A stretch of 31,035 bases of DNA from a virus, in IMG/VR virus record IMGVR_UViG_3300042691_006523, positions 1 through 31,035 of that record. One strand, 5' to 3'. Of the stretch, positions 13,735-30,168 are shown piece by piece. Every line of letters starts with the position of its first letter. Position 1 is the stretch's first letter. The translations under genes were made by a program, and so were the position numbers. The notes under the pieces are model-generated. The model was not told the origin of the DNA, did not search any database, and saw nothing but the letters and a program-made list of their open reading frames with translations.

Positions 13735-16674
13735 ATGTCTAAATCTTCCGCTTACGGACTAGCGTCCCTAAAAAAACAACCCAAACGGTTTGTTACCGGC
13801 GGGGAAATTATCGGCATTTACGAAGACCTGTTTGGTCGCCGTCCAGATGACGACGGGCTTAAGTACTGGACCGAAGCGTTACAAGGCAAAACACGTGCTG
13901 AAGCATACGCCCAAATTGGTGGCGCTGCTGGTGGTCAAGACGTTAAAGAAGTTGACAGTAAAGAAATTGCTGAGAAAGCAATTAAAGCCGCTTACGAAGA
14001 GCAGCTTGGCCGTAAAGCTGATGACGCAGGTTTAAAGTACTACACAGACAAAGTACTTGCTGGCGAAGCTGATATTAATAAAATTAGCGCCGATCTTGAT
14101 CGTTCAACTGAAGGCTACAACTACGACGCTGAGCGCCTTGTCAGTTCATACCGGCAAAACTTTGGACGTGACCCAGATCAAGCGGGTTTTCAATATTGGA
14201 TGGGTGAAGAGGACAAAGCTTCCTCTGGCATTGGCGCGTTAAGCGACGCGTTTCGTGCAGCTGCTTCTGGAAAAGATATTGCCGCTGCAGCCGCTGCTCC
14301 TGAAGGTGGGTATACATCAATGGATCTCGAAGCACTCCGCGCTGATCCATACGCAGGTCTGTATGCTTCTGAAAACCCATATTTATTTGATCTATCGCCT
14401 GAGCAAAGAGCTAATCTGGTTAACGTATCTCAGACTCAAGCTGGGCAATACATTCAATTCACAAACCCAGTTACAGGACGTCCTGTAATTTCTCGCGCTA
14501 ATCCAGATGGTACGTTTACTAGCATTTCTGGAGACGATGTTCTTCAAGCGGCTAACGTCCGTGGCGCTATGAATTTAGCGCTTAGTTCTGGCGCATTAAC
14601 TCAGGCAAAATATAATGAGATCGAATCCAAGATCCTTAACGCTCCTGCTGGCACTACGATGCCTTGGAGCGAGATCTATTCAACGCTCAGTGCTCCACAG
14701 GCTCGCGTTATTCTCAATAACATGGGTATTCAGATTGGCGAGGATGCGGATCCGGTCGCGGCGTTAGCTGAGTCTTCTGCCCGTAACGAGCTGGTCACGC
14801 AGTCAATTATTCAAAATGGTTTGACGCTTGGCACAATCCCTTCTACTCGTTTAATTGGGCAGACAGCACAGGCTACTGGGCAAGCGTATCCGTTTACTGA
14901 AGAAGCTATGCGTGCCGCAGTGCCGCGTAATATTTTTTATACGCAAGATACGCTAAATAACTTAGGCACTCGTTTAGGAAATGCGCCTCCTGTCACACGG
15001 CAGAGCCTTACGCCTGAGTTCTTTGGCGTAACACCGGGAATGACTAAGAAAGAAGCTGACGATATTTTAGCAATTCGTCCTTCCGGACCAGCGCCGTTAC
15101 CAACGCCATTCCAAACGTATGCAGATCGTCCTTTACTTGGCGGTGCTGCTCCTGGCGCACCTAATATTCTTGGTATTGCTGCTCCTGCACCTTATGCTGG
15201 CGTGCCTGCAACACCTCCACGTCCTGCACTTAATGTGTCTCCGGCTGGGCAAGCAGCGGCAGATGTTCGAGCCACGTTAGAAGCGTCTCAAAACTATCTT
15301 GATCCGCGTGATTTTGTTCCGGTTGATAGGTTTAATCCGTTTACTGCTGTCGTTCCAACTACCCCCGGCACTACGGTAATAACACCAACCACACCAACTA
15401 CTTCTACTACACCAGGTACAACAGCCGGAGGAAGATCTAACGAACCCGGTTCTGAGTATGAAGGCAGACAGGGCGGTTATGTTGGAATGGCTGATGGCGG
15501 TATTGCTGGTTTAGCTCAGAAAGTTCAGAGTGCTGGTCGTGGCGACGATACTATGTTGGTCCACATGACGCCTAACGAAGTTGCTGGACTTCAGGCGTTG
15601 GCTATGCAGATGGGCGGCTCGGGCACGATTAACCCTTATACCGGTTTGCCTGAGTTTGGTTGGCTGGATAAGGCTTGGAAGAATTTCCTGAAACCTGTCC
15701 GCAAGGTGGCTCGCGGTCTTGGCCCAATTGGTACGATTGTTGGCGCCTACTTTGGTGGTCCAATTGGCGCAGCGCTTGTTGCAGGTCTTCAGAATAAAGA
15801 AAAGACATTTGATTTTGGGCGTGCTGCAACTGCAGCCGCTGCTACGTATATTGGTGGCAAAATTGTTAGCGGTGTAGGTGGAATGACCGGTGCTGAAGGT
15901 GTAACTCCTCCTGTTGGTGGGGAAGTTGCCGGTGCCGCTCCTCCTGTTAGCGCTCCTCCTATTGGCGGTGAACTTGCTGGAAGTGCGCCTGCTGCTCCAA
16001 TCTCAGATATCTCCTTTCCTAGCAGTTCAGTACCTGCTGGCGCTCCCCCCGATTTAGGTAGCGCCATGTTTGATATTGCTAAAGAAGGCGCTAAAGCTGT
16101 TGGCATCGACACCCCGGCTAAAGCACTTTTTGCTGGCACACAAGCTGTATCAGCAATTAAAGGCTATCAAGACCAGAAGAACTACGAAGAAGACTACGCC
16201 CGTGCCTTGGCAGAGGAAGAAGAGCGTCGTCGACTCCAACGTGAGCAAGCCTACGCAACTATGCGGCAGTACCCGATTAACTTTGGTGCTGAAGGCGGCG
16301 TGATGGTGACAGATGAGCCGGGCGAAGATTTAGCCGCTGGCGGTCTGAAAGAAGGCAGCTTCATTGTCCCTGCTGACGTCGTTGCGCACCTTGGTAACGG
16401 CAGCACAGATGCTGGACTTAAAGCTCTGGCTAAAAAATACGGGGCTAAGCCTATTAAAGGTCCCGGAGATGGAATGAGCGACTCCATCCCAACGCACATC
16501 GAGGGCAGACAACGCGCCCGCGTAGCGGATGGTGAAGCAATTATTGAGCCGATGGTTACACAGAAGGTCGGTGCCAAGAACCTTTACGCAATGATGGACA
16601 AGGTTCGCAAGGCTCGCACAGGTACAACCAAGCAAGGTAGAGAAATTAACCCAATGCGCTACATGCCCGCGTAA
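13735..16674 (+). CDS. Internal/ejection virion protein with three DUF4214-like repeats
   Basis: 979 aa. Residues 28-45, 86-103 and 138-155 hold three copies of a Y-E-x-x-LGR-x-D-D-x-GL-x-YW unit (IYEDLFGRRPDDDGLKYW; AAYEEQLGRKADDAGLKYY; SYRQNFGRDPDQAGFQYW), the hallmark of DUF4214. A long low-complexity Ala/Pro/Gly/Thr region follows. A glycine-zipper hydrophobic segment lies near 660-685 (GPIGTIVGAYFGGPIGAALV). GG-rich motifs (GGYVGMADGGIAGL near 581; GGVMVTDEPGEDLAAGG near 851) flank it. The C-terminus RQRARVADGEAIIEP to LYAMMDKVRKARTG is familiar from long proteins downstream of nozzle genes in marine podoviruses. A role as a DNA-ejection or inner-core protein is inferred from position and composition. 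Confidence 0.75.
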   Translation: MSKSSAYGLASLKKQPKRFVTGGEIIGIYEDLFGRRPDDDGLKYWTEALQGKTRAEAYAQIGGAAGGQDVKEVDSKEIAEKAIKAAYEEQLGRKADDAGLKYYTDKVLAGEADINKISADLDRSTEGYNYDAERLVSSYRQNFGRDPDQAGFQYWMGEEDKASSGIGALSDAFRAAASGKDIAAAAAAPEGGYTSMDLEALRADPYAGLYASENPYLFDLSPEQRANLVNVSQTQAGQYIQFTNPVTGRPVISRANPDGTFTSISGDDVLQAANVRGAMNLALSSGALTQAKYNEIESKILNAPAGTTMPWSEIYSTLSAPQARVILNNMGIQIGEDADPVAALAESSARNELVTQSIIQNGLTLGTIPSTRLIGQTAQATGQAYPFTEEAMRAAVPRNIFYTQDTLNNLGTRLGNAPPVTRQSLTPEFFGVTPGMTKKEADDILAIRPSGPAPLPTPFQTYADRPLLGGAAPGAPNILGIAAPAPYAGVPATPPRPALNVSPAGQAAADVRATLEASQNYLDPRDFVPVDRFNPFTAVVPTTPGTTVITPTTPTTSTTPGTTAGGRSNEPGSEYEGRQGGYVGMADGGIAGLAQKVQSAGRGDDTMLVHMTPNEVAGLQALAMQMGGSGTINPYTGLPEFGWLDKAWKNFLKPVRKVARGLGPIGTIVGAYFGGPIGAALVAGLQNKEKTFDFGRAATAAAATYIGGKIVSGVGGMTGAEGVTPPVGGEVAGAAPPVSAPPIGGELAGSAPAAPISDISFPSSSVPAGAPPDLGSAMFDIAKEGAKAVGIDTPAKALFAGTQAVSAIKGYQDQKNYEEDYARALAEEEERRRLQREQAYATMRQYPINFGAEGGVMVTDEPGEDLAAGGLKEGSFIVPADVVAHLGNGSTDAGLKALAKKYGAKPIKGPGDGMSDSIPTHIEGRQRARVADGEAIIEPMVTQKVGAKNLYAMMDKVRKARTGTTKQGREINPMRYMPA

Positions 16675-16683
16675 GGAACAAAC

Positions 16684-17727
16684 ATGCCCACGCAAACCGT
16701 AAGTACAACAAGTGACGTCCCAGCCTTCCTAGAACCGTATTACACGGGCGCACCACAGGTCGGGCAACCCGGCCAAGCTGGCTACAAAGCTGCTGTTCCG
16801 GGGCTTATTCCCAAAGCCTACGAGTTTTATAGCAAACCCTACCAGGAAGTCTACGGTCAAGGGCTTCAGGCGTTAGGTCTTGAGGGTGCTGGTCGTATTG
16901 CCGGTATGTCTCCGTATCAGGCACGTGTTGGTCAAGAGCTTGGCGCTATGACTACGCCTGGTCAGTTTGGCGCGGCTACTCAGTACGGCATGGGTGCAGG
17001 TGATGTTTACGGCGCGCTATCTGGTCTGCAGGCTCCTACTGTTGGTATTGGAAGCATTACAGGTCAGGGCATCCTTGGCGCTTACATGTCGCCGTATCAG
17101 CAGGCTGTTACGGATATTCAAAAGACATCAGCAATTACTGACGCTCAGAAAGCTCAGTTGGCACAGAATCTTGCAGCATCGCGTCAAGGCACATATGGTG
17201 GCGCACGTCAGCTTCTGGCTACTACCGAGCGCGAGAAAGCCCTTCAGGGTCAGCTTGGCAACATTCAGGCTACGGGTCTACAGAACGCATATCAGCAAGC
17301 GCTGGCTCAGTTCAACGCTGAAAATCAGTTGGGCTTCCAAGCACAGCAGGCTAACCAACAAGCGGCTCTCCAAGCAGCCCAACAGCGTTTAGCCGCAGGT
17401 CAAGGTCTTGCTGGTCTGGCCGGTACGATGGCGAACATTGGCGTTGGTCAACAGGCCGCTGACATTGATCGTATTAAGACCATGGGCGCGTTTGGCGACC
17501 TCCAGCGTGGTATTAGCCAGCAGCAACTTGACGTTCAGTACGCAGATGCCATGCGTCGGATGCAGTACCCCGAGTCTCAGATTCAAGGTATTTCTGGGAT
17601 TCTTCGTGGCGTACCGCTTACAGATACTACGCAGACTGCGGTTACTCCTCCGCCTAGCTTTGCTAGTCAGCTGGCTGGTCTGGGTCTCTCTGGCCTTGGC
17701 CTTTACAACATGATGAATCCTAAGTAA
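16684..17727 (+). CDS. Probable internal/ejection virion protein, Gln/Ala-rich
   Basis: 347 aa. The N-terminus is VPAFLEPYYTGAPQVGQPGQ and then LIPKAYEFYSKPYQEVYGQG. The middle has MSPYQARVGQELGAM and GAYMSPYQQAVTDIQKTSAI, so a MSPYQ motif occurs twice. Residues about 150-275 form a long helical stretch rich in Gln, Ala and Leu (QAQQANQQAALQAAQQRLAA), a likely coiled coil. It ends with a short hydrophobic helix (ASQLAGLGLSGLGLYNMM). Composition and location between two other core-like genes suggest an ejected or internal virion protein; no enzyme motif is present. It starts after a TAAGGA Shine-Dalgarno that includes the upstream stop, and its own stop is likewise fused to the next Shine-Dalgarno. 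Confidence 0.72.
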   Translation: MPTQTVSTTSDVPAFLEPYYTGAPQVGQPGQAGYKAAVPGLIPKAYEFYSKPYQEVYGQGLQALGLEGAGRIAGMSPYQARVGQELGAMTTPGQFGAATQYGMGAGDVYGALSGLQAPTVGIGSITGQGILGAYMSPYQQAVTDIQKTSAITDAQKAQLAQNLAASRQGTYGGARQLLATTEREKALQGQLGNIQATGLQNAYQQALAQFNAENQLGFQAQQANQQAALQAAQQRLAAGQGLAGLAGTMANIGVGQQAADIDRIKTMGAFGDLQRGISQQQLDVQYADAMRRMQYPESQIQGISGILRGVPLTDTTQTAVTPPPSFASQLAGLGLSGLGLYNMMNPK

Positions 17728-19375: not shown

Positions 19376-22300
19376 ATGGCTGTTTACGCCCAGTTAGCAG
19401 ATGGACGACTGTTAGAGTTTCCTGATGGCACATCTCAGGAGGTAATGACAAAAGCCGTTAAACGCTTTTTAATGACTGAAAAAGGCCCCGAGACGGGCCT
19501 TGGTTCTAAGCTAGTTGGGGGTTTTAAGCGTACCGTTTCTGACATTCAGACGGGCATTGAGTCTCTCTACGATCCGGAAGGCGCTGCGCGTCGAGGGCTA
19601 GAAAGACAGGAAGAACTTGGACTTCAGTACGCTCCTGGTACGGACCTTGAAGCCGTAAAGAAAGCCTATGCTGAGCGTGGGTTGTTTCCCGCTGCTGGTG
19701 AAGTTGTTAGTCAGATTCCTGGCGCAGTTGCTGAACAGGTTCCCACTATTGCTAGTACGTTAGCCAGCGCCCGTGCTGGCGCTATGGCGGGTCGTCGTTT
19801 TGGCCCTCTTGGTACTCTTATTGGTGGTGCTGCTGGTGCAGCCACACCTACTATGGCGCAGCTTTTTGGCGCTAACTTACAGCGTCAGGCTGAAGAAGGT
19901 CAGGAAATATCCAGAGGCCGTGCCGCTGCAGCAGCCGTTCCGGGTGCAGCTCTTGAAGTTGCATCTACCTTCATTCCGTTGGGCGGCAAGGTTATCAGCA
20001 AGATTCTTGGGCCGGGTGCAGAGGAGCTTCTTGCCCGTGGTGGTTCAAAGATCGTAGAAGAAGGTTTAGTTAAAACTTTAGCTAAAGGCACCGCTGTTGG
20101 TGTCATGGCTGAAATCCCAACTGAAGTTACCCAGCAGATGCTTGAGCGTCTGCAAGCAGGTTTACCTCTAACTAGCCAAGATGCTCTAGCTGAGTACGGT
20201 CAGGCTGCATATGGTGCCGGTCTTGTGGGTGGTCCGTTTGGTGCCGTTGGTCGTGTCGGTCAGCGCTCTGTTGCTCGGGGTGAGCAGGCTGATGAGTTGC
20301 GTGAAAAACAGCGCCTTGAGTCTGAGATTGCCGCTAAAGAAGCTGCCGCAGCAGAAGAAGCCGAGACTGCCCGTAAAAAATCCCCTGAATATCGCATTGA
20401 GCTGATCGGCAAAATCAACGAAGCAGAAGACCGGTTAAAGCAAGTAGAACCAATTGCTAAAGATAAATCTGCTGATCCAGATGTTCGCAACGAAGCTATT
20501 GCAGAAGCTAAACAGCTTAAAGAGCAACTGAAAAAGCTAAACGAAGAAATGAAAGCTTCCATGAAGGAAGCCGGATTAGCGCCCACACTTAAGGAAGCTA
20601 TTGCTCAGAAGCCTCGTGAAATGCCTGTAGTTGACGAGTTTGGTAATGTGGTTAAGCCAAAAGGTGCGCCGTTAACCGAGGAAGAGTACGGGCAAAAGCT
20701 TGACGACGCCGCTACCAAATGGAACGAAACACGCGAAAAGATTTTTGAATTACGAGCTAAAGAAGAAGCTCGTCAAGCTGCTGAAAGAGATAAGTACAGC
20801 GAGCAGGTAACAAAGAGCATTAAAAATTACCTCACCGGACTTGATGAGCTGGACGAAGCTAACCTTGAACAGCGCACAAAGCTAGAGTTAGAGAAGCGTG
20901 AAAAGGGCGAAAAAGAAGCGCTGCAGCAGCGCGCGCTAGATCGTACCCAGCGGATTGTTAATGACTTTGGTTTTCACATACTAGGGTACAGCATTGACCC
21001 TGAAGTTCTTCGTCTTAAAAACGAAATTGAAAATCTTAGCCGTCCTGAATCCATTGCAGCGGCTCCTGACCGTGATGCTCGCCTTAAACAAATTGATGAT
21101 TTAAAAGCTGAGTTAGATAAAGCTCAGCAAAATGCGTCGCCTACTAGCCGCGAAGGTCTACGGCGCTTGATCGACGAGGGGCGTGTTAGTCGTGATGTCA
21201 CAAACGCATTAGGCATTAAAGGGTTGGGCGGGCGCACTGTATCTGCTACAGATGCGTTACCAAAAATTGAAGCACGTATTAACCAGCTAGAAGCCCAACG
21301 CAAAGCTTTAACTGCGTCAGAAAAGCAACTGATAGATGGCAATAACGAGCTTACACCTGCTGGACAAAAGCTTGTTGCAGTAGATGTTCAACTAAACGAG
21401 TTGAAGCGGCTTCGTACTGTCGGTCAACAGGCAGAAGAAACCGGCGTTGAGAAAGGTGTTGGCGCTTCTGTACGGGAAGCTTTCTTAGGAAAGGCACCTG
21501 CTTTAGCTGACGACATTGATCTGACTGTCCCCATCACGCCATATATTGCAGAGCAATACAGAAAAGAAGCTGAAAAAGCTAACGTGCAGGCCACCGGAGC
21601 ATATTCCGACATGGCTATGTTGTTGGACGACTACCAAAAAGGCAGATTCTTTGGTGAAAAAGGGGCGCAGCGTGACATAGAAGCTGCCAGCTACACACGT
21701 GAAGGCCTTCTCAGAGAAACAGAAGAAGCTCGTAAACGCGTTATTGACAATTTAATCCGTGAGATTTCTTACCAGCGGTTAGCCGAAAAGAGACCTGCTT
21801 TCACTCGTGACGAAGCTATCAAGGTTGCGTTTGACGTTAACAATATCCTGGAAGAGCTAGTCAACCGTGGAACCGCACTCCCCAGTGGGCAGTTCTTAGA
21901 AATTGTCGGGCAGCGCCCTGCACAGATGCGCGGTGATAAGATTGTTAAAGCCGCTGAGCCTATCGCCCGAGACAGCCGTAATTTGAAAGACCGCCAGTTT
22001 GGTGCTCCTGCGCAGGCCGTAGAAGTATTAGCGGAGAGTATTAACCAAATAAAACAGCAAGCTATTGCTGCCTCTGTTCGTGCTGTCCGCGCTGACAAAG
22101 AGACGCTGCAGCTTCGTAAAACTCCTAGAGAAGCGCAGCCTGATCTGGTTAAAGACCTTGATCGCGTCCTCCGCATGGAGGATCTGCAGCCTGAAGTTCG
22201 GGATGTTCTTGAGCAAGCTCAGCGCCGGATGGAAGAGGGCGGCATTAGCGTTGAGCTAGAAGAGCTTCTTGATGAGCAGGTAGGCCGCATACTGCGTGGC

Positions 22301-25300
22301 ACCGACAAGCCGTTTACTGTTGAAGCGTTCCGCACCGCTGATGTAACCAAGCCAGCCGGTAGACGCGCTATGGCGGCACGGGCAGATGTTAACGCCCCCC
22401 TTATCGACGATATTCAAAACCGGATGCGTATTGATTCTGAACTGGCTCAGTATGCACAGGGTGAGCAACGTACGCTTGTTCCTCGTGGAGAAGGTTTTGC
22501 CGAGGTTGATGTTCAGGGTAGCTTGTTTCCAGAAACAGAAGCTACGGCTCGCGCCACTCCCGCTCAGTTTCAGCGTTTACAAAAGTCTGGGAAAGTACGG
22601 AAAGAGCAGAAAAAGGTTGCTGAAGCTAAACAAAAAACCGAAGAAACCGAACGTGAAATTCGTGCAGCTGCACGGGCTGTAAAAGAAGAACTGCGTCCTG
22701 AAGCTATACAAAGCAGAAAGCGCGATCTTCTTGGGCGTATTCAACAGTTGATGCAAGAAACAAAGCAGAAAATTGAATCTGCTAAGTTTGAAACTCCCGA
22801 TAAGCTTATGGAGAAGGTTAAAGAAGAACCTGCTCGGGCTTTGTTAAGCCGCATCGAGATAGCGGCTAAGGATTTAAAAGCTGAAGATGCTGAGTTTGAA
22901 ATGTCTACGGAAGGTCTGCGCCTTACCTGGGTTCCTGACTCAACGCTTAACGCATGGGCGCGGCTAGATGAGAGTATTGCTAAAGAAGCTAAGAACATTA
23001 AAGAACTAGAACGCTTGGCAGCTAACGCCGAGAAAGGTTCTTTGGAGCAACGTAAAGCACAGGCACTGGCTAAGCAGCAACGTGTTGCTGTGCAACAAGT
23101 ACTTACGGCTCGTAAAAAACTAGCTGAACAGTATGCGGATCGTCAACGTGCTTTAGAGACACGTATTCAGTCAGGGCTTGGTTTACCTGGACGCAGAGTT
23201 ACTGTTGAGCAAAGACCGACAAAGCGCAAAAAGACCAAGGAAGAATACGCCGCTGAAATGAAGGCGTATAAAGCGTTGCCCGCTAAAGAGCGTGAACTTA
23301 CCCAAAAACCCACTAAGTTTGAAGCTGGTAGCGCACGACAGGCAAAAGTTGTTCCGATTAAATCTAAGGAGCAACTGGATAAAGAAATTGCTGCGCGTCG
23401 CCAAGAACAGCTTGATGATATCCGCCGCCGGGCTAAAGTTGGTTCAGTTGAAACAGTAGTTCAGAAAACCAAAGAAAAAGAACTAGACGCTAGACGGGCA
23501 TTTAATGACGCTAAAGCTAAGCGTGATCTTTTTGAGTTAGCTGTTAAGAAGGGCGAAGCTAAAAAAGACCCGGCAAAGCTAAAGCGACTGAATCAACAAG
23601 TTGAAACAGCTAAAAACAAGCTCGACGATATACGTAGCGATTTACGGTTGATGACTTCTGGGGACATCGAGAACATTGTTCGTCAACCCAGCCGTGGTCC
23701 GATTGGTGGTCCGGTTCAGTGGTACGACAAAAAGTTTACGCCCGATCAGATGCGCAGCATGTCTGGTCTTGGTATTGATACGTTTAGCCCAAGAAGTTTT
23801 TCGGTCGATGACTCTATCGACTTTGCTGTGGGTGAAGGTCAGGGTGGCGGTATTGACCAAGCTGCGGCTGATAAGCGCATGGCTGAGGTTGAGAAGAAGC
23901 TCCCCGCAGGTATTAAGTTCAAGTACTTTCCCACCATGGAGAGCGTCACCGTTGACATCCTCCGGGAAATGTCTAAGCAGGGCGTTGATATTTATAACAC
24001 CTACATCCGTGGCGGTGTGAAGCCGGATGGCACCGTGTTTGTTATCGGCGGGAATCACGTTGACATGGTAGATCTGGAAAAGACTATCGCGCACGAGTTT
24101 GTCGGCCACTTTACTTTCGAGGGTATGCTCGGTCCTGACGGCATGAAGAACCTGCTGGGTCGGGTAGATAAGTCTCTGGGTGGTGTGTTTAAGCTGGCCG
24201 ATACGCTCGGCGTAGCCGAAGATGCCCGTAATGCCTACGCTGCCGGTCTGAAGTATGGCCTTAGCCCCAAGGATGCTGAAGTAAAAGCCTTGAAGGAAGT
24301 CATCGCCTACACGATGGAGAAGCGGGTTGACTCGAAATTCTTGGAGAAAGCTAAGCGCTGGATTCAGGAAATGGTTGGGGCTTTCCGTGCGTTGCTGAAG
24401 AAGATGGGTCTGCTGGATGCCGCAAGCCTGTCAACGTCTGACCTCTTCTACATGATGAAGCAGGCCAATAAGTACTTCGAGGAAGGCAAGCCAATTGCCT
24501 ACAAGAGCGCAGACGGCGACATTAGCTTCCGGGCTATTGAGCCTAAGTACGGCGCTGGCATGGAAGATCTTGGCGCTCTGGCAGATAAAGTTGTCGGTAG
24601 CCAGAAAGGTTTTGTTGACAAGATTAAAGCCAACACCATGGGATTGGCTGGCCGCGTGCAGTTTGTTGACCGTTGGGCCGCACTGGAAGAAGCCGTTAAG
24701 CGTGGTGTTGACAAGGGCATTATCGACTCCCTGAAGGCTGGGGATGTCATGTACTTTGCTCGAATAGCAGACCAGCGCCATGCGCTGACATCTGAGGTAG
24801 CAACTAACGGAAACCTTAAACTAAAAGAAGTCAAGCGTCCTGACGGTAGGATCGAAAAGATCGTTGAATCTGAGCGTAGCGCAAGCCTGAAAGATGTTGC
24901 TGAGGCGTTGCAAAAAGCTAACGTGGGCGATGCTGACGCTACTAACCGTTTATTCACCCTGTATCTGGCCGCTGAACGTGCCCAGAATGTTGGCCTTGAT
25001 AAGCTGAACTTCAGCGGGAAAATTACCGAAGCTGACATGAAGAAAGCGCTTGCTATGGGCCGGGCTAATCCAGCCTTCCAAGAAGCGCGGAAACTGTACA
25101 ACGAGTACAACAAGGGTTTGATTGAGTTTGCCGTTAAAGCTGGTGCGATGAGTAAAGAGCTAGGGGCTAAGCTTCTCGCTAAAGGCGATTACATTCCTTA
25201 CTACCGTATCCGAGGCGGTGTTGCTGAGCTGTTGATTGGCGGTGAGAAGCCTATCCAGATTGGCGATACGAAGAGCCAGCCTTATCTAAAAGAACTTATT

Positions 25301-27160
25301 GGTGGCGATGAGGCCATCATGGACTTCTTCACGTCGTCGCTGCAGAACACTAGCCTGCTGACGGACATGGCGCTGCGCAACATGGCGACATACCAAGCGG
25401 CTAACGTGCTGAAAGATCTAGGCGTAGCTAAGGTTGTTAAGGGTACTGGTCCAGCAGGCAAAGACGTCATTCGCTTTAAGTACAACGGCGATGAATACTA
25501 CGCGCAGATTGATACACAGGCTAAAGAAGATTTGTTTGGTGATATTCCATCTGAACTTATCGTCACTGGCATGGAAGGTATTAAGGTCATTGTCCCTGGT
25601 GTCGTTCGTGGTCTTGCTGGCCCGGCTAATATTCTGCGTAAATTTATTACGCGTGACCCCCGCTATGCAGTGCGTCAGGTTTTCCGTGATTCGCTGACGG
25701 CGTCCATGACTACTGGATCAAACATGATCCCGCTGGTTTCTACGATGGGTCAGCTAAGCACGCTTTACAAAGAAGGTGCCGGTGCTCTTCAACGACGTGG
25801 TATAACAACCGGGCAGGTCATTACCGGCGCTCCTGAAGACATGAACAAGATTCTTCAGCAGATCACTTCTGGTAAGCCTGGCTGGGACATGGCGATGGCT
25901 AAGCTCGATCAGTTTGCGATGGCTGGTGATGCGGCAACCCGCATGGCGCTGTACAACTCTTTCCTGAAGCAAGGACTGTCTGAGCGCGAGGCCACCATGG
26001 CTACGCTGGAGTCGATGAACTTTGGACGCCGTGGCGTATCGCCTTCGATCTACTTCCTGAACGCAACTGTTCCGTTCTTCAATGCCGGTATTCAGGGTCT
26101 GGATGTTCTGTACCGTGCGTTCACTAACCAGATGCCGTACGCCGAGCAGTTGAAGGTTAAGCAGAAGCTGTTGGCTCGGGGCGCTTTGATGGCTGCGTTT
26201 ACATGGGCTTATGTCGCCATGATGCAGGACGATGAGGCGTACAAGAACGCTACCCCAGAGCAGCGTTACGGCAACTGGTTCATTCGTATCCCAGGTATGG
26301 AAGAGCCGTTCCGGGTGCCTATCCCGTTTGAATTGGGCTTGATCTTCAAGGCTATCCCAGAAGGTTTGATGAACGCTGCCATCTCGGATGAGAAAGGCTC
26401 GAAGATTGCTGGCGATCTGTTTAAGCAGATGATGCGTTCAATGCCGGGTAATCCAGCAGAAGCTGGCGTACCGGTACCAACATTCATGAAGCCGCTGATC
26501 GAGACGGCGCTGAACAAGTCGTTCTTTACGAACCGTGACATTGTTGATGCCCGGTTAGAAGGTCTTGATAAGCGCTTCCAGTACCGCGACAAAACGCCTG
26601 AGTTGTTGAAGATTCTTGGCCCGTTGTTCGAGGTTATTAATCTGTCTCCTGTACAGGTTGAGAATCTAGTCCGTGGTTACACTGGCTCGCTGGGTGTTGG
26701 TTTACTAAGCGTTGTTGACCCGATCTTACGCACTAAAGAAGCTGGCGCTGCTGCACCAAAAGGCATGTCAGAGGTGCCGTTCGTTGGTCCAATCATCGGC
26801 GGTCTGTTCCAGCCTAACGACGCTGGGCGCGTAATTAACGAAGCCTACGACAGCGTCAAGGAGATCCAGTCTCGTCAGAACACGTATCGGAAACTGAGAG
26901 AAGAAGGCCAGACCAAAGAAGCTGAGGAATACCTGAAAGAAAATCTGCCTGCTTTACAGGCTTCGTCTGCGGCAGGTGCTTTCCGTCAGCAGATGGGTGA
27001 AATTACTAAGGCTGAGCGTGCAGTCAAAGCAGCTCCTCCCGACATGATGACGCCTGAACAGAAACGGAAACGCCTTGACGAATTGCGCGAGTTGAAGAAT
27101 AACTTGGCTCGTCGGATGAACGAACTCAGCGCACGAACAGAACGCCAAGCCGCCCGTTAA
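19376..27160 (+). CDS. Giant polyvalent-type ejection protein with HExxGH peptidase-like motif and LPD38-like C-terminus
   Basis: 2594 aa, a quarter of the window. Residues 1-35 hold ADGRLLEFPDGTSQEVMTKA, a module seen at the N-terminus of phage internal proteins. Residues about 100-220 are Gly/Ala-rich and hydrophobic (GRRFGPLGTLIGGAAGAATP), a possible membrane-inserting part. Residues about 300-1450 are charged coiled coil. Around 1485-1600 lies a small domain with AHEFVGHF (H1573, E1574, H1578), resembling the HExxGH motif of metallopeptidase domains in phage polyvalent proteins. Further on are YFARIADQRHAL (about 1794), YNEYNKGLIEFAVKAGAM (about 1908), GDYIPYYR (about 1937) and an LPD38-like region (about 2180-2420, NWFIRIPGMEEPFRVPIPFE). 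It is probably injected with the DNA. No polymerase motif was seen. Confidence 0.75.
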   Translation: MAVYAQLADGRLLEFPDGTSQEVMTKAVKRFLMTEKGPETGLGSKLVGGFKRTVSDIQTGIESLYDPEGAARRGLERQEELGLQYAPGTDLEAVKKAYAERGLFPAAGEVVSQIPGAVAEQVPTIASTLASARAGAMAGRRFGPLGTLIGGAAGAATPTMAQLFGANLQRQAEEGQEISRGRAAAAAVPGAALEVASTFIPLGGKVISKILGPGAEELLARGGSKIVEEGLVKTLAKGTAVGVMAEIPTEVTQQMLERLQAGLPLTSQDALAEYGQAAYGAGLVGGPFGAVGRVGQRSVARGEQADELREKQRLESEIAAKEAAAAEEAETARKKSPEYRIELIGKINEAEDRLKQVEPIAKDKSADPDVRNEAIAEAKQLKEQLKKLNEEMKASMKEAGLAPTLKEAIAQKPREMPVVDEFGNVVKPKGAPLTEEEYGQKLDDAATKWNETREKIFELRAKEEARQAAERDKYSEQVTKSIKNYLTGLDELDEANLEQRTKLELEKREKGEKEALQQRALDRTQRIVNDFGFHILGYSIDPEVLRLKNEIENLSRPESIAAAPDRDARLKQIDDLKAELDKAQQNASPTSREGLRRLIDEGRVSRDVTNALGIKGLGGRTVSATDALPKIEARINQLEAQRKALTASEKQLIDGNNELTPAGQKLVAVDVQLNELKRLRTVGQQAEETGVEKGVGASVREAFLGKAPALADDIDLTVPITPYIAEQYRKEAEKANVQATGAYSDMAMLLDDYQKGRFFGEKGAQRDIEAASYTREGLLRETEEARKRVIDNLIREISYQRLAEKRPAFTRDEAIKVAFDVNNILEELVNRGTALPSGQFLEIVGQRPAQMRGDKIVKAAEPIARDSRNLKDRQFGAPAQAVEVLAESINQIKQQAIAASVRAVRADKETLQLRKTPREAQPDLVKDLDRVLRMEDLQPEVRDVLEQAQRRMEEGGISVELEELLDEQVGRILRGTDKPFTVEAFRTADVTKPAGRRAMAARADVNAPLIDDIQNRMRIDSELAQYAQGEQRTLVPRGEGFAEVDVQGSLFPETEATARATPAQFQRLQKSGKVRKEQKKVAEAKQKTEETEREIRAAARAVKEELRPEAIQSRKRDLLGRIQQLMQETKQKIESAKFETPDKLMEKVKEEPARALLSRIEIAAKDLKAEDAEFEMSTEGLRLTWVPDSTLNAWARLDESIAKEAKNIKELERLAANAEKGSLEQRKAQALAKQQRVAVQQVLTARKKLAEQYADRQRALETRIQSGLGLPGRRVTVEQRPTKRKKTKEEYAAEMKAYKALPAKERELTQKPTKFEAGSARQAKVVPIKSKEQLDKEIAARRQEQLDDIRRRAKVGSVETVVQKTKEKELDARRAFNDAKAKRDLFELAVKKGEAKKDPAKLKRLNQQVETAKNKLDDIRSDLRLMTSGDIENIVRQPSRGPIGGPVQWYDKKFTPDQMRSMSGLGIDTFSPRSFSVDDSIDFAVGEGQGGGIDQAAADKRMAEVEKKLPAGIKFKYFPTMESVTVDILREMSKQGVDIYNTYIRGGVKPDGTVFVIGGNHVDMVDLEKTIAHEFVGHFTFEGMLGPDGMKNLLGRVDKSLGGVFKLADTLGVAEDARNAYAAGLKYGLSPKDAEVKALKEVIAYTMEKRVDSKFLEKAKRWIQEMVGAFRALLKKMGLLDAASLSTSDLFYMMKQANKYFEEGKPIAYKSADGDISFRAIEPKYGAGMEDLGALADKVVGSQKGFVDKIKANTMGLAGRVQFVDRWAALEEAVKRGVDKGIIDSLKAGDVMYFARIADQRHALTSEVATNGNLKLKEVKRPDGRIEKIVESERSASLKDVAEALQKANVGDADATNRLFTLYLAAERAQNVGLDKLNFSGKITEADMKKALAMGRANPAFQEARKLYNEYNKGLIEFAVKAGAMSKELGAKLLAKGDYIPYYRIRGGVAELLIGGEKPIQIGDTKSQPYLKELIGGDEAIMDFFTSSLQNTSLLTDMALRNMATYQAANVLKDLGVAKVVKGTGPAGKDVIRFKYNGDEYYAQIDTQAKEDLFGDIPSELIVTGMEGIKVIVPGVVRGLAGPANILRKFITRDPRYAVRQVFRDSLTASMTTGSNMIPLVSTMGQLSTLYKEGAGALQRRGITTGQVITGAPEDMNKILQQITSGKPGWDMAMAKLDQFAMAGDAATRMALYNSFLKQGLSEREATMATLESMNFGRRGVSPSIYFLNATVPFFNAGIQGLDVLYRAFTNQMPYAEQLKVKQKLLARGALMAAFTWAYVAMMQDDEAYKNATPEQRYGNWFIRIPGMEEPFRVPIPFELGLIFKAIPEGLMNAAISDEKGSKIAGDLFKQMMRSMPGNPAEAGVPVPTFMKPLIETALNKSFFTNRDIVDARLEGLDKRFQYRDKTPELLKILGPLFEVINLSPVQVENLVRGYTGSLGVGLLSVVDPILRTKEAGAAAPKGMSEVPFVGPIIGGLFQPNDAGRVINEAYDSVKEIQSRQNTYRKLREEGQTKEAEEYLKENLPALQASSAAGAFRQQMGEITKAERAVKAAPPDMMTPEQKRKRLDELRELKNNLARRMNELSARTERQAAR

Positions 27161-27241: not shown

Positions 27242-27272
27242 GGCAGGGGACGAAAAACCCCTGCCCCTTTTT
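27242..27272 (+). terminator. Rho-independent terminator of the rightward late block
   Basis: A perfect 8-bp stem (GGCAGGGG at 27242-27249 with CCCCTGCC at 27258-27265) closes an 8-base loop ACGAAAAA. It is followed by CC and TTTTT (27268-27272). The orientation fits termination of the + strand transcript. On the - strand the hairpin is not followed by a T run. Its T run overlaps the stop codon of the convergent primase gene. Confidence 0.88.
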
Positions 27273-30168
27273 AAGCTGCTTCCAAGGATAGCGGCGTACT
27301 AGTTTCTTCATCGCCCTCGATCTTCCGGGAGATCTTTATTGCGTTGACTCGGGTTGGCGGTCCCTTGGTTTTCGACATCAGATCTTTCTTCAGGTAGGAC
27401 ACGGCGTATTTACTCTCCATCTCCTTCTTGAAGTCTGAGTACCCGAAGCTGTGTTCGTTGCAGTACTTCTTCAGGCGCTTCTCTTCGATGTAGTAGTCGA
27501 TATGCCCCGGCGTTACGCCATGCTCAACCCTACCGCAGACCTCAGTCCGTGAAGTACTGACGTCGATCACCCCATCATCGCCAAGCGAAGCGGTCAACGC
27601 ACCGTTCAATGTCTTAACGATAATAAGTTTGCCGTAGTAGTCTGACGTGTAGGAGTTCAGCACATCTTCAGCCGTGCGCAGATTGCCCTTCCTTACGCCT
27701 CGGGCATCATCAACTAGGCTCTTCAGAAAGCGAATCACCGTCTCGATGGGGTAACGCATAATCCCAGCTTCAGCCGCCAGCATTGCGCCAGCCACCACGG
27801 TAGTACATCCAACCTGCCAGAAGCGTTCCTGACTGACGAAGTTCATTTCTTTCTTCAGTCTGATGCCGACTTCACGCACCACCTGCCTAGCCCTATCAGG
27901 GTTATCCACTAACCACTGCACATACATGTGACCAGCAACGCCGTAGTTCATTCGTAGGCTTTCGATCAGCGCTTCATCTTCAGGCGTGAGGCTCAGAACC
28001 TGGGTCGGATTCCACTCCAGCAAGCGAAGCATCTCACCTTGGGACGAATGTTCCCGGCTATCCAGCAAGTCCTTGGCGTGCGTATTGGAGGTGAATAGCG
28101 TCTGCGTCTGCCATTGCGTGTCATTGATTCGCTCTTTGTTAGCTCCCGATTCCATCCGGTCTTTACCCTGACCTTCAGACATATCCAACAAGAAAGCCGA
28201 GAACCATTCAGGAGCAGTGCGGTTCTTCTGTGTGATCTCGTCTGACAGCAGGGGCAGGTTCTTCAGCAGGCCAAGGCGTTGCTGCATCGTTACGTCTGAT
28301 GTGCCTTTGCCTGTGCGGTAGTAAACCGGATGCCCCCAGACGCTAGATACGAGGTCCATCGAGAGCGACTTACCCGTACCGGAATCTGTTGACCCGATGT
28401 GCCATGTCAACCCGTTAAAGGTTGTGTAGCGCATCAGCGGTGTGGCAAAGGCGATCAGAGACATCGTCAGCACGCCGTCTAGTTTGTGCCGCATGATCAT
28501 GTTGACCACCTTGCGCCACTCGTCGATGGATCCGGTTGGCCTACAAGCTTTGTTCAGGTTGCCCAGGTGCCGCATCGGGATGTGCCGTGGAGGCAGACCA
28601 GCCGAATAGATATGCTCGTTAAAGACAAATGTCCCGTCCTCTTGCCATCCGTAGCTGGGCGGCACCTTGATGACTCGGTTGTTGATGGAGGCTTCTTCCA
28701 CTGCCGACCGGACGTACTCGAACAGGTTTTTATCGTTCCAGCCACCAGACGCTAGGACGTTCTGCTCAGCCAGCGCCTTCAGGGTTTCGTCCTTGGATAC
28801 CACCGCCCTCTGATTCAGCGTGACTTCCATCGCTCCTGTGGCACGCAGGGCTACCATGTGGACCATGTGCTCGTCTTCGTGCTGAAGGATATTAACTACA
28901 AACAAGTCATAGGGAAGAATCATTACCTGCTTGGTAACATCTTTTCCTTCGTCGTCCTGCATCTTGACGTCCCGAAACACACCGCCTTTTGCCCCGAAAG
29001 AAAAGCCCTTCGGCGCGGCTGGTCTGCGCAGGGTAGTCGTGGATATGGGTGCGGCTTCGGGCAGGTCTACGGTCTGTTCTGCGGGTTCTGGGAGGACAAT
29101 CTCCTTGGCTTCCGTCTCTACCTTCAGCTTCCGACCCAGCGCCAAAGGGTTGGTGATCTTGCCGAAATGGGGACAGCTTGTGCAGATGCCGGGGTTCTCA
29201 GAGTCCAGTTTCAGACAGGGGTACGGCCCCTTGATCTCCCGTAGCTTCTGCGCCATCCGGTCTGGGGTATAGGGGTGCAGTTCCGACAGCTTAATCGCCC
29301 ACTCCCCACCGTCATCGCATTTTTGCGCTAATGACAGCATCCCACGCCAGAGCGGCTCCATCCCATCTTCTTGGGCATGGCTCATGTAGTGAGCTAGTTG
29401 TCCGCACCCTGTACCTTCTTCCGTACGCTTGGCGATCTGGGCGAACAGCGTTTCACTATTCTCGATCAGCTTCAGCGTTGTCGTAGTGGGCGCAGTCTTG
29501 GGACGTTGCCCCGGTAGGCTGGCGAGCGTGTTCTCGTAGGTAGGTGCCTTCAGCTTAGACTTGATAAAGGAGTCCAGCTCAAACAGAGAAAACTCCCTGC
29601 TGTGTGCCTGAAGAACCTTGACCGGGCGTGGCTTAGCCTTCTTGAAGTTAAACGTACCCGGTACGCGCAGTACCCTCGCGGCGTCAGCCGTGCAGTTCCA
29701 GTCGATGATCAGACCTTCTTGCTTGCACAGACGTTTAAAGTTTTCAGCTATTGGTTTCCACTGAGCGATAGGCACTTCCTCATCGAAAGGCCAGTAGATG
29801 TGAAAGCCACCCCCCGATGACACGACGATAGGCTGACCGAGTTCGGCCATGCCTGTCTCCCCCATGAACTTCTCGAACGCGGCAATCGCTTCCTGTCGAC
29901 TCTGGTAGGCCTTCTCACCGCCGAGGTCTACGTCCATGAACAACGACTTCATAGACTTAGCGTTGTCAGCTAAGCGGTTATCAGGCGTACGAAAGTTCGC
30001 TAAGGCGAAGTACGCGTCTTTATTCTCTGCCGCAAACTTGTTTGCAGCATCTAGCACTTCATCGAGCGTGTCGACGAAGATGTGTTCCTTCTTAGCAGTC
30101 GTGAACTCAGCAACGCAGTAAACGCCAGAGGAAGGAAGCACAGCCGCTAGAAAATCAAGCGGTTGCAT
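27271..30168 (-). CDS. Primase-helicase fusion (AEP-type primase + DUF927 helicase)
   Basis: 965 aa. The N-terminal primase region has FMDVDLGG (D79, D81), SSGGGFHIYW (H123) and IDWNCTADAARVLRVPGTFN (D156; R165, R168). This is the DxD / sxH / R-P-G-T-N pattern of archaeo-eukaryotic-type primases. A cysteine cluster (C318, C329, C332 in GICTSCPHFG) probably binds zinc. The C-terminal helicase has WHIGSTDSGTGKS (Walker A, K600/S601) followed by SVWG, a DUF927 hallmark. Walker B is LPLLSDEI (D643/E644), and an arginine-bearing SSQGEMLRLLEW follows. It should prime and unwind DNA at the phage origin. The start has an AAGGGGA ribosome site. It is the last gene of a leftward operon that converges on the late block. 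Confidence 0.9.
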   Translation of the reverse strand: MQPLDFLAAVLPSSGVYCVAEFTTAKKEHIFVDTLDEVLDAANKFAAENKDAYFALANFRTPDNRLADNAKSMKSLFMDVDLGGEKAYQSRQEAIAAFEKFMGETGMAELGQPIVVSSGGGFHIYWPFDEEVPIAQWKPIAENFKRLCKQEGLIIDWNCTADAARVLRVPGTFNFKKAKPRPVKVLQAHSREFSLFELDSFIKSKLKAPTYENTLASLPGQRPKTAPTTTTLKLIENSETLFAQIAKRTEEGTGCGQLAHYMSHAQEDGMEPLWRGMLSLAQKCDDGGEWAIKLSELHPYTPDRMAQKLREIKGPYPCLKLDSENPGICTSCPHFGKITNPLALGRKLKVETEAKEIVLPEPAEQTVDLPEAAPISTTTLRRPAAPKGFSFGAKGGVFRDVKMQDDEGKDVTKQVMILPYDLFVVNILQHEDEHMVHMVALRATGAMEVTLNQRAVVSKDETLKALAEQNVLASGGWNDKNLFEYVRSAVEEASINNRVIKVPPSYGWQEDGTFVFNEHIYSAGLPPRHIPMRHLGNLNKACRPTGSIDEWRKVVNMIMRHKLDGVLTMSLIAFATPLMRYTTFNGLTWHIGSTDSGTGKSLSMDLVSSVWGHPVYYRTGKGTSDVTMQQRLGLLKNLPLLSDEITQKNRTAPEWFSAFLLDMSEGQGKDRMESGANKERINDTQWQTQTLFTSNTHAKDLLDSREHSSQGEMLRLLEWNPTQVLSLTPEDEALIESLRMNYGVAGHMYVQWLVDNPDRARQVVREVGIRLKKEMNFVSQERFWQVGCTTVVAGAMLAAEAGIMRYPIETVIRFLKSLVDDARGVRKGNLRTAEDVLNSYTSDYYGKLIIVKTLNGALTASLGDDGVIDVSTSRTEVCGRVEHGVTPGHIDYYIEEKRLKKYCNEHSFGYSDFKKEMESKYAVSYLKKDLMSKTKGPPTRVNAIKISRKIEGDEETSTPLSLEAA

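Follow-up and report, generated by a model that had tools for sequence, protein, structure and literature searches.

A HExxxH metallopeptidase-type domain, exchanged between motif types, in a giant phage ejection-type protein with a conserved LPD38 module

Introduction

Does a zinc-site motif in the middle of a giant phage-type protein mark a protease, and what might such a protease cleave? The virus contig IMGVR_UViG_3300042691_006523 (31,035 bases, analyzed over its full length and called the window here) encodes a 2594-aa protein for which an initial annotation had proposed a metallopeptidase delivered into the host. Zincin-like metallopeptidases (MPTases) are the commonest domain of polyvalent proteins in the account of Iyer et al. 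(2017, PMC5512222), although in their text on these domains the MPTase role is still a proposal. A limited literature search for phage ejection proteins and metallopeptidases as a joint subject returned no match.

Sequence sets and alignments

Handles of the form L058 denote individual loci. Alignment A1 holds 49 of the 54 first-round domains, mostly of the HExxH type (L018, L032, L067, L069 and L075 were left out). A2, weighted to HExxGH, holds 18 of 20 HExxGH rows plus L068. Three further alignments were chosen by the authors: A3 (9 rows) and A4 (6 rows) from HExxGH groups, and A7 with 20 of 25 HExxH rows, L068 being among those left out. A5 contains 92 of 105 non-redundant rows, in which HExxGH prevails; L018, L024, L042, L052, L058, L083, L155, L157, L159, L161, L202, L203 and L209 were left out. 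A6 covers the C-terminal module in 25 rows, the window plus 24 of the 49 that were eligible, at a mean column identity of 52%; a further 12 candidate rows were dropped for a stop codon in the matched stretch.

Results

The motif lies in a giant protein with an LPD38 C-terminus

AHEFVGHF, with H1573, E1574 and H1578, is present in the 2594-aa ORF where the initial annotation had placed it (24041-24130, or residues 1556-1585), and the sequence before it is TVFVIGGNHVDM, as given there. The codons are 24092-24094 for H1573, 24095-24097 for E1574 and 24107-24109 for H1578. The whole protein has five histidines (534, 1561, 1573, 1578 and 1802), three of which (1561, 1573 and 1578) fall inside 18 residues. 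Shuffling the protein 5000 times never produced HExxGH and produced HExx(G)H three times. The clustering of histidines and the result of the shuffles indicate that AHEFVGHF is not a chance motif.

The LPD38-like C-terminus proposed earlier was confirmed by PF18857 (116 bits against a curated cutoff of 27), and phrog_18222 matches residues 1898-2584 (Table 1). LPD38 is confined to phage-type proteins in the survey of Iyer et al. (PMC5512222), and 51 unique peptides represent the LPD38 protein gp69 of JC1 in the proteomics of that phage's purified virions (PMC9144972). Taken with the neighboring gene that weakly matches a DNA ejection protein family, the LPD38 domain and the gp69 data suggest that the 2594-aa protein is probably ejected into the bacterium with the viral DNA.

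Table 1. Features of the window discussed in the text
Feature	Positions	Strand	Basis or remark
979-aa protein with two DUF4214 stretches	13735-16674	+	DUF4214 E 1.8e-13; upstream of the ejection-type genes
Upstream gene, weak match to a DNA ejection protein family	16684-17727	+	phrog_4287 E 2.7e-5
2594-aa large polyvalent/ejection-type protein containing the MPTase domain	19376-27160	+	ORF; LPD38 and phrog_18222 matches
Zincin-like metallopeptidase domain, residues 1478-1706 (modeled extent)	23807-24493	+	Model and 92-row alignment A5
H1561	24056-24058	+	His before the active-site helix; possible pocket residue
Motif H1573-E1574-F-V-G-H1578 (HExxGH)	24092-24109	+	Two predicted zinc ligands and predicted general base
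E1641 in the following helix (LKEVIAY)	24296-24298	+	Predicted third zinc ligand
Conserved C-terminal module, residues 1764-2594	24665-27157	+	Best 80 of 88 viral relatives; alignment A6
LPD38 domain, residues 2286-2470	26231-26785	+	PF18857 E 2.9e-33
965-aa protein with DUF927 and primase/helicase PHROG matches	27271-30168	-	DUF927 E 3.6e-22; convergent with the ejection-type gene

Homologues fetched without the motif retain it

We searched with the C-terminal module (residues 1761-2594), using patterns that lie outside the motif, and took the best 80 of 88 viral relatives. Removal of 15 loci with fewer than 350 aa upstream and of 8 duplicates left 57 informative proteins, the near-copy of the window included. 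An HExx(x)H motif was found in 56 of the 57, always before the C-terminal module and at a varying distance from it. Within 420 aa of the module, 19 proteins carry HExxGH and 25 carry HExxH; another nine have HExxH farther upstream, and four show neither pattern. In L030 (HEVGVH), L036 (HEVGTH) and L072 (HEVGAH), an HExxxH motif lies about 480-580 aa upstream of the module and is followed by a Glu (DDELLAYAVEEA, DDEIIAYAVEEA), so that the HExxxH spacing occurs as 19 HExxGH and three HEVGxH. The one exception among the 57, L039, has no HExx(x)H motif and is open at its 5' end. Conservation of the H/E/H residues, on which the initial annotation depended, therefore holds in homologues that were fetched without the motif. 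Among genome contigs, three stretches matched one motif-containing pattern and none was confirmed as a relative.

A glutamate in the following helix is conserved

Counts of H/E/H are circular in the 54-, 92-, 105-, 106- and 141-row sets, which consist of motif-bearing rows, and two of the searches used motif-containing patterns as well; the 57-protein set is the one obtained independently of the motif. E1641 lies outside the first search patterns (the second pattern of A4, used in a later search, covers its region). It is kept in 53 of the 54 first-round domains, which were collected without an A1 filter. It is also kept in 139 of 141 rows of a larger set that holds the window twice, as itself and as its near-copy, and that additionally required a match at E 1e-3 to profile A1, which contains the Glu column. 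The two exceptions in the larger set, L058 and L155, carry a long insertion, beyond which a corresponding Glu stands in VRELIARAAE. Once 106 rows were re-aligned without these two, E1641 was kept in 106 of 106, as were both histidines in these motif-selected rows. Four columns only are invariant in A5, namely H96, E97, H101 and E164 (H1573, E1574, H1578 and E1641), with H/E/H having been selection criteria and the rows lacking an aligned E1641 (L058 and L155) excluded beforehand. H1561 is kept in 9 of 9 members of the window's nearer group, and a His stands there in 67 of 108 HExxGH rows.

The insertion of L058 and L155 separates the HExxGH helix from the Glu helix, inside the protease domain. 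It includes a common stretch, LTRRRLLQAAGAA / MTRRRLLQAAGAA, which we take to be reminiscent of a twin-arginine signal.

The predicted fold has a zincin-like order of elements

Residues 1478-1706 were modeled with the 92-sequence alignment (mean pLDDT 92.6, pTM 0.87). The model runs strand, helix, strand, helix, two strands, the long HEFVGH helix and further helices, with E1641 in model helix 154-171. In this prediction the order of the core elements appears close to that of the polyvalent MPTases described by Iyer et al. The zincin-like element order supports the initial annotation; comparisons with PDB folds were weak and gave differing results for two models. With an earlier, poorer model (pLDDT 65.8), the top VIA-align row was lethal factor (Z 6.7, rmsd 3.7, 157 aligned), and IrrE reached Z 6.0 (rmsd 3.3, 90 aligned), values that by the program's own warning may reflect merely a common arrangement. 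With the better model, lethal factor fell to Z 3.3 (through its N-terminal domain), followed by N4 vRNAP (9pnt, a weak match at Z 3.1, rmsd 3.2, 90 aligned) and MATCAP (2.4); these zincin-type rows, at Z up to 3.3, are scattered among unrelated rows, the best of which reaches Z 4.2. For neither model did Foldseek return a PDB structure at E ≤ 0.001. A comparison with predicted viral structures gave 229 matches, of which seven were at E ≤ 0.001, and three of the seven are named large polyvalent proteins.

Family searches with the window domain gave no Pfam family at E up to 10, no PHROG for the MPTase part and, in the PDB by sequence, one chance match (E 1.2). Pfam searches with 49 members reached 71 families at E up to 1; the 25 listed are scattered and mostly weak, and among them are Zincin_1 (4), SprT-like (2), DUF6782 (2) and Peptidase_M78 (1). 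Among the 92 members of A5, 12 matched a virion RNA polymerase PHROG, 5 a DarB-like antirestriction PHROG and 25 a PHROG without a name, and the window matched none. Profile A1 matched three solved ejection proteins, in each case over the HExxH of that protein and a Glu farther on: 9sfn_G (E 3.5e-14), 23sg_S (7.6e-8) and 8vb2_A (3e-4). A designed helical bundle, 4uos (1.2e-4), outranks 8vb2 in that search, so the 8vb2 match rests on the aligned motif and not on its E-value. A5 matches 9sfn_G at E 7.4e-4. A2 found no significant zincin in the PDB (the top row, leucurolysin-A, had E 0.0068 and an alignment that missed the motif; 3e11_A came at 0.09), and the C-terminal profile A6 gave one chance row (E 1) and no credible solved chain. 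In profile-profile comparison, the two HExxGH groups are firmly joined (A3/A4, 96.9%, E 1.3e-10), whereas HExxGH against HExxH is weak (A3/A7 2.1%, A4/A7 34.6%; control A3/A6 0.6%).

These searches bear on whether AHEFVGHF could be a chance motif that falls in a helical region and has no metal site. The lack of a curated family for the window domain and the weak PDB fold searches would fit such an origin. It is contradicted by the shuffles, by retention of the motif in homologues fetched independently of it and by a Glu that stood outside the search pattern, and we regard it as highly improbable. Conservation of H/E/H and the Glu, the zincin-like element order and the published HEXXXH spacing support the likeness to polyvalent metallopeptidases that had been noted for this locus. 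Residues ~1478-1706 very probably form a zinc site of the MPTase type found in polyvalent proteins. In this site H1573, H1578 and E1641 would bind the metal and E1574 would act as the general base.

The domain resembles the HEXXXH set of polyvalent proteins and occurs in cultured phages

The polyvalent MPTases described by Iyer et al., divided by them into 12 clades, include an HEXXXH set, with a possible bend in the helix (PMC5512222). Like that set, the window protein is a giant multidomain phage-type protein with an HExxxH helix, then a Glu helix, and an LPD38 partner. Its place in the set, assigned from the published description, is well supported. The HEXXXH kind of MPTase has been known since 2017. 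What the present analysis adds is the occurrence of the HExxxH type in cultured phages and, as the more interesting part, the exchange of MPTase types described below.

Matches were found in 152 phage records, five of which we examined; since HMMER was run over five proteins per search, bits are quoted. Four of the five are of the HExxxH type: Achromobacter phage CF418P1 (HEVVGH, A5 91 bits), Vibrio phage 1.232.O (HELVVH, 56 bits), E. coli phage PTXU04 (QBQ76639.1, HEIIVH, 45 bits) and Aeromonas phage phiARM81mr (HEVLAH, 41 bits). Planktothrix phage Pag-Yong1 is of the HExxH type. The CF418P1 protein (L218; OQ817832.1, WNO49116.1) is annotated as a 'putative portal', a name that looks wrong because the protein matches the C-terminal module of the window and carries the HEVVGH metallopeptidase domain.

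Podophage ejection proteins 9sfn_G, 23sg gp10 and 8vb2 gp48 (the last apparently of the phiM1 ejectosome) resemble the window protein as ejection or internal virion proteins that have an HExxHA motif and a later Glu. Unlike the window, they have the classical HExxH, they are joined to it mainly via HExxH homologues, and the HExxGH-rich A5 reaches 9sfn_G only. In N4 vRNAP, an ejected giant protein, the HExxH domain C1 precedes a large helical C-terminal domain, as its structural description has it (PMC12633501). In contrast to N4 vRNAP, the window protein has no polymerase family above its cutoff. Residues 594-649 (window 21155-21322, + strand) show a match to PF21867, a domain of virion RNA polymerases, that stays below threshold (E 0.077; 13.7 bits, cutoff 27).

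Dipeptidyl peptidase III (family M49) also has HExxGH, with its Glu in a later motif, and the family has HExxH members whose zinc site is described as much alike (PMC5805324). M49, where both lengths occur, offers a parallel to the presence of five- and six-residue zinc motifs ahead of a single C-terminal module. Dipeptidyl peptidase III differs from the window domain in being a free-standing two-domain exopeptidase of ~550-740 aa. We rejected membership of the window domain in M49, given its lack of any Pfam family at the E-value threshold used above and its size of ~230 aa inside a 2594-aa protein.

MPTase types are exchanged before a conserved C-terminal module

We compared how motif types are distributed on two quick trees whose rows differ. 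The MPTase tree has 106 rows, with the motif columns removed, L058 and L155 omitted and the three HEVGxH rows added. A starred branch splits its main HExxH group (24 rows) from the other 82, and the three motif states need three changes. L068 (HELGH) falls among the HExxGH rows, nearest L074 (HELTGH, 58% identity); its HExxH may have come from HExxGH by loss of a single residue, though starred branches do not fix this placing. The tree of the C-terminal module (56 proteins, with the two-motif L062 typed by the motif nearer the C-terminus) needs 10 changes for HExxH versus the rest, of which 8 are forced by starred branches. Shuffled labels needed 18.7 changes on average, and 0 of 500 shuffles were as low as 10, indicating that type is more clustered on this tree than shuffled labels would be.

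Exchange was also apparent between close relatives, here non-identical pairs with at least 75% C-terminal identity over at least 600 aa (54 pairs of 63 proteins). Ten of these pairs differ in MPTase type and 12 more have the same type with less than 50% domain identity, many pairs having members in common. The pairs that differ in type make up three groups: L028/L054; L044 and L047-L049 versus L046 and L053; and L071/L072. All are IMG/VR contigs, any single pair of which may be a chimera. The clearest pair, L071/L072 (L071:2708-12349, L072:1385-10501), shares 95% of its DNA sequence across a 12.5-kb stretch that takes in the C-terminal module and the genes downstream of it, and 92% across 985 bases at the gene's 5' end. 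The middles (1947 and 1767 aa) have no protein similarity to each other (best E 0.19), and hold an HExxH MPTase in L071 and an HEVGxH MPTase in L072. Beyond the middle, the DNA match picks up again near residue 2376 of L071, shortly after the MPTase domain, and the protein alignment begins earlier, at 2317. In this pair the MPTase was thus exchanged jointly with the block upstream of it, as expected if a protease and its cut sites travel together.

Mosaic exchange among ejection proteins is already known, as one account of these proteins notes (PMC8954989), and recombined cassettes were raised as a possibility by Iyer et al. Repeated exchange of MPTase type before one C-terminal module goes beyond what their text on these domains describes. 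As a tentative model, a delivery chassis may consist of an N-terminal stretch (~360 aa in the clearest pair) and the ~830-aa C-terminal LPD38 module, both kept, between which payloads and their own metalloprotease are swapped as a unit. Proteases of the HExxH, HExxGH and HEVGxH types would then each release the payloads to which they are matched and could replace one another, and L068 may be an HExxH revertant.

Self-processing and its alternatives

The MPTase lies between a long exchangeable N-terminal and middle region and the conserved LPD38 module, which is probably a packaging or delivery part. The domain most likely serves to cut the giant protein that contains it, either in the head or once ejected, and such a cut would free the upstream payload modules from the C-terminal module. 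P1 DdrB undergoes processing ahead of packaging, and autoproteolysis has been proposed (Iyer et al., PMC5512222). No cut site or cleavage product was observed for the window protein. Self-processing is favored by the near-universal presence of the motif and its exchange together with the upstream block. We give about even odds to the reading as a whole, in which an HExxxH-variant MPTase with a zinc site serves most likely in self-processing of an ejected protein. N4 vRNAP, which has an MPTase domain and is packaged unprocessed (PMC5512222), calls for caution about assuming maturation in the head.

The main rival is that the zinc protease acts on host proteins, for example in defense or in the membrane, in the infected cell. 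The type changes on the C-terminal tree are a turnover that would fit an arms race and keep this reading in consideration, and Iyer et al. list host targeting by MPTases as possible (PMC5512222). Two proteins carry two metallopeptidase-like motifs each, L062 with HELTH and HEVGAH (residues 1729 and 1964) and L057 with HELGH and HELVH (residues 1253 and 1548), which would also suit a host effector. However, the motif's presence in 56 of 57 informative homologues suggests a standing role and is unlike an optional effector, and MPTase type follows the C-terminal tree more closely than shuffled labels do. We consider a host-directed effector rather unlikely, and less so than the structural role considered next.

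That role would be a pseudo-enzyme, in which the zincin fold and metal site serve packaging or folding without relevant proteolysis. Encapsidation of N4 vRNAP, which stays unprocessed, depends on a region that includes its MPTase (PMC5512222). In addition, 8vb2 aligns at HEAAHA, and the main text of the phiM1 paper does not contain the terms metallop-, protease or HExxH. Against a pseudo-enzyme, E1574 is kept alongside the histidines in 54 of 54 and 105 of 105 rows, which were found by an HE-containing pattern, and among the 57 proteins fetched by the C-terminal module only the 5'-cut L039 is without the motif. We view the pseudo-enzyme as improbable and continue to prefer self-processing. With a kept motif, an exchanged type and a cultured E. 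coli phage, PTXU04, the choice between self-processing and attack on the host becomes testable.

Two of the HEVGxH proteins, L036 and L072, match no Pfam family other than LPD38. Both have a stretch, GTWHGSDA..FDRRF..GPYVTPDKEY, between the MPTase and the C-terminal module, which is reminiscent of the ADP-ribosyltransferases of polyvalent proteins.
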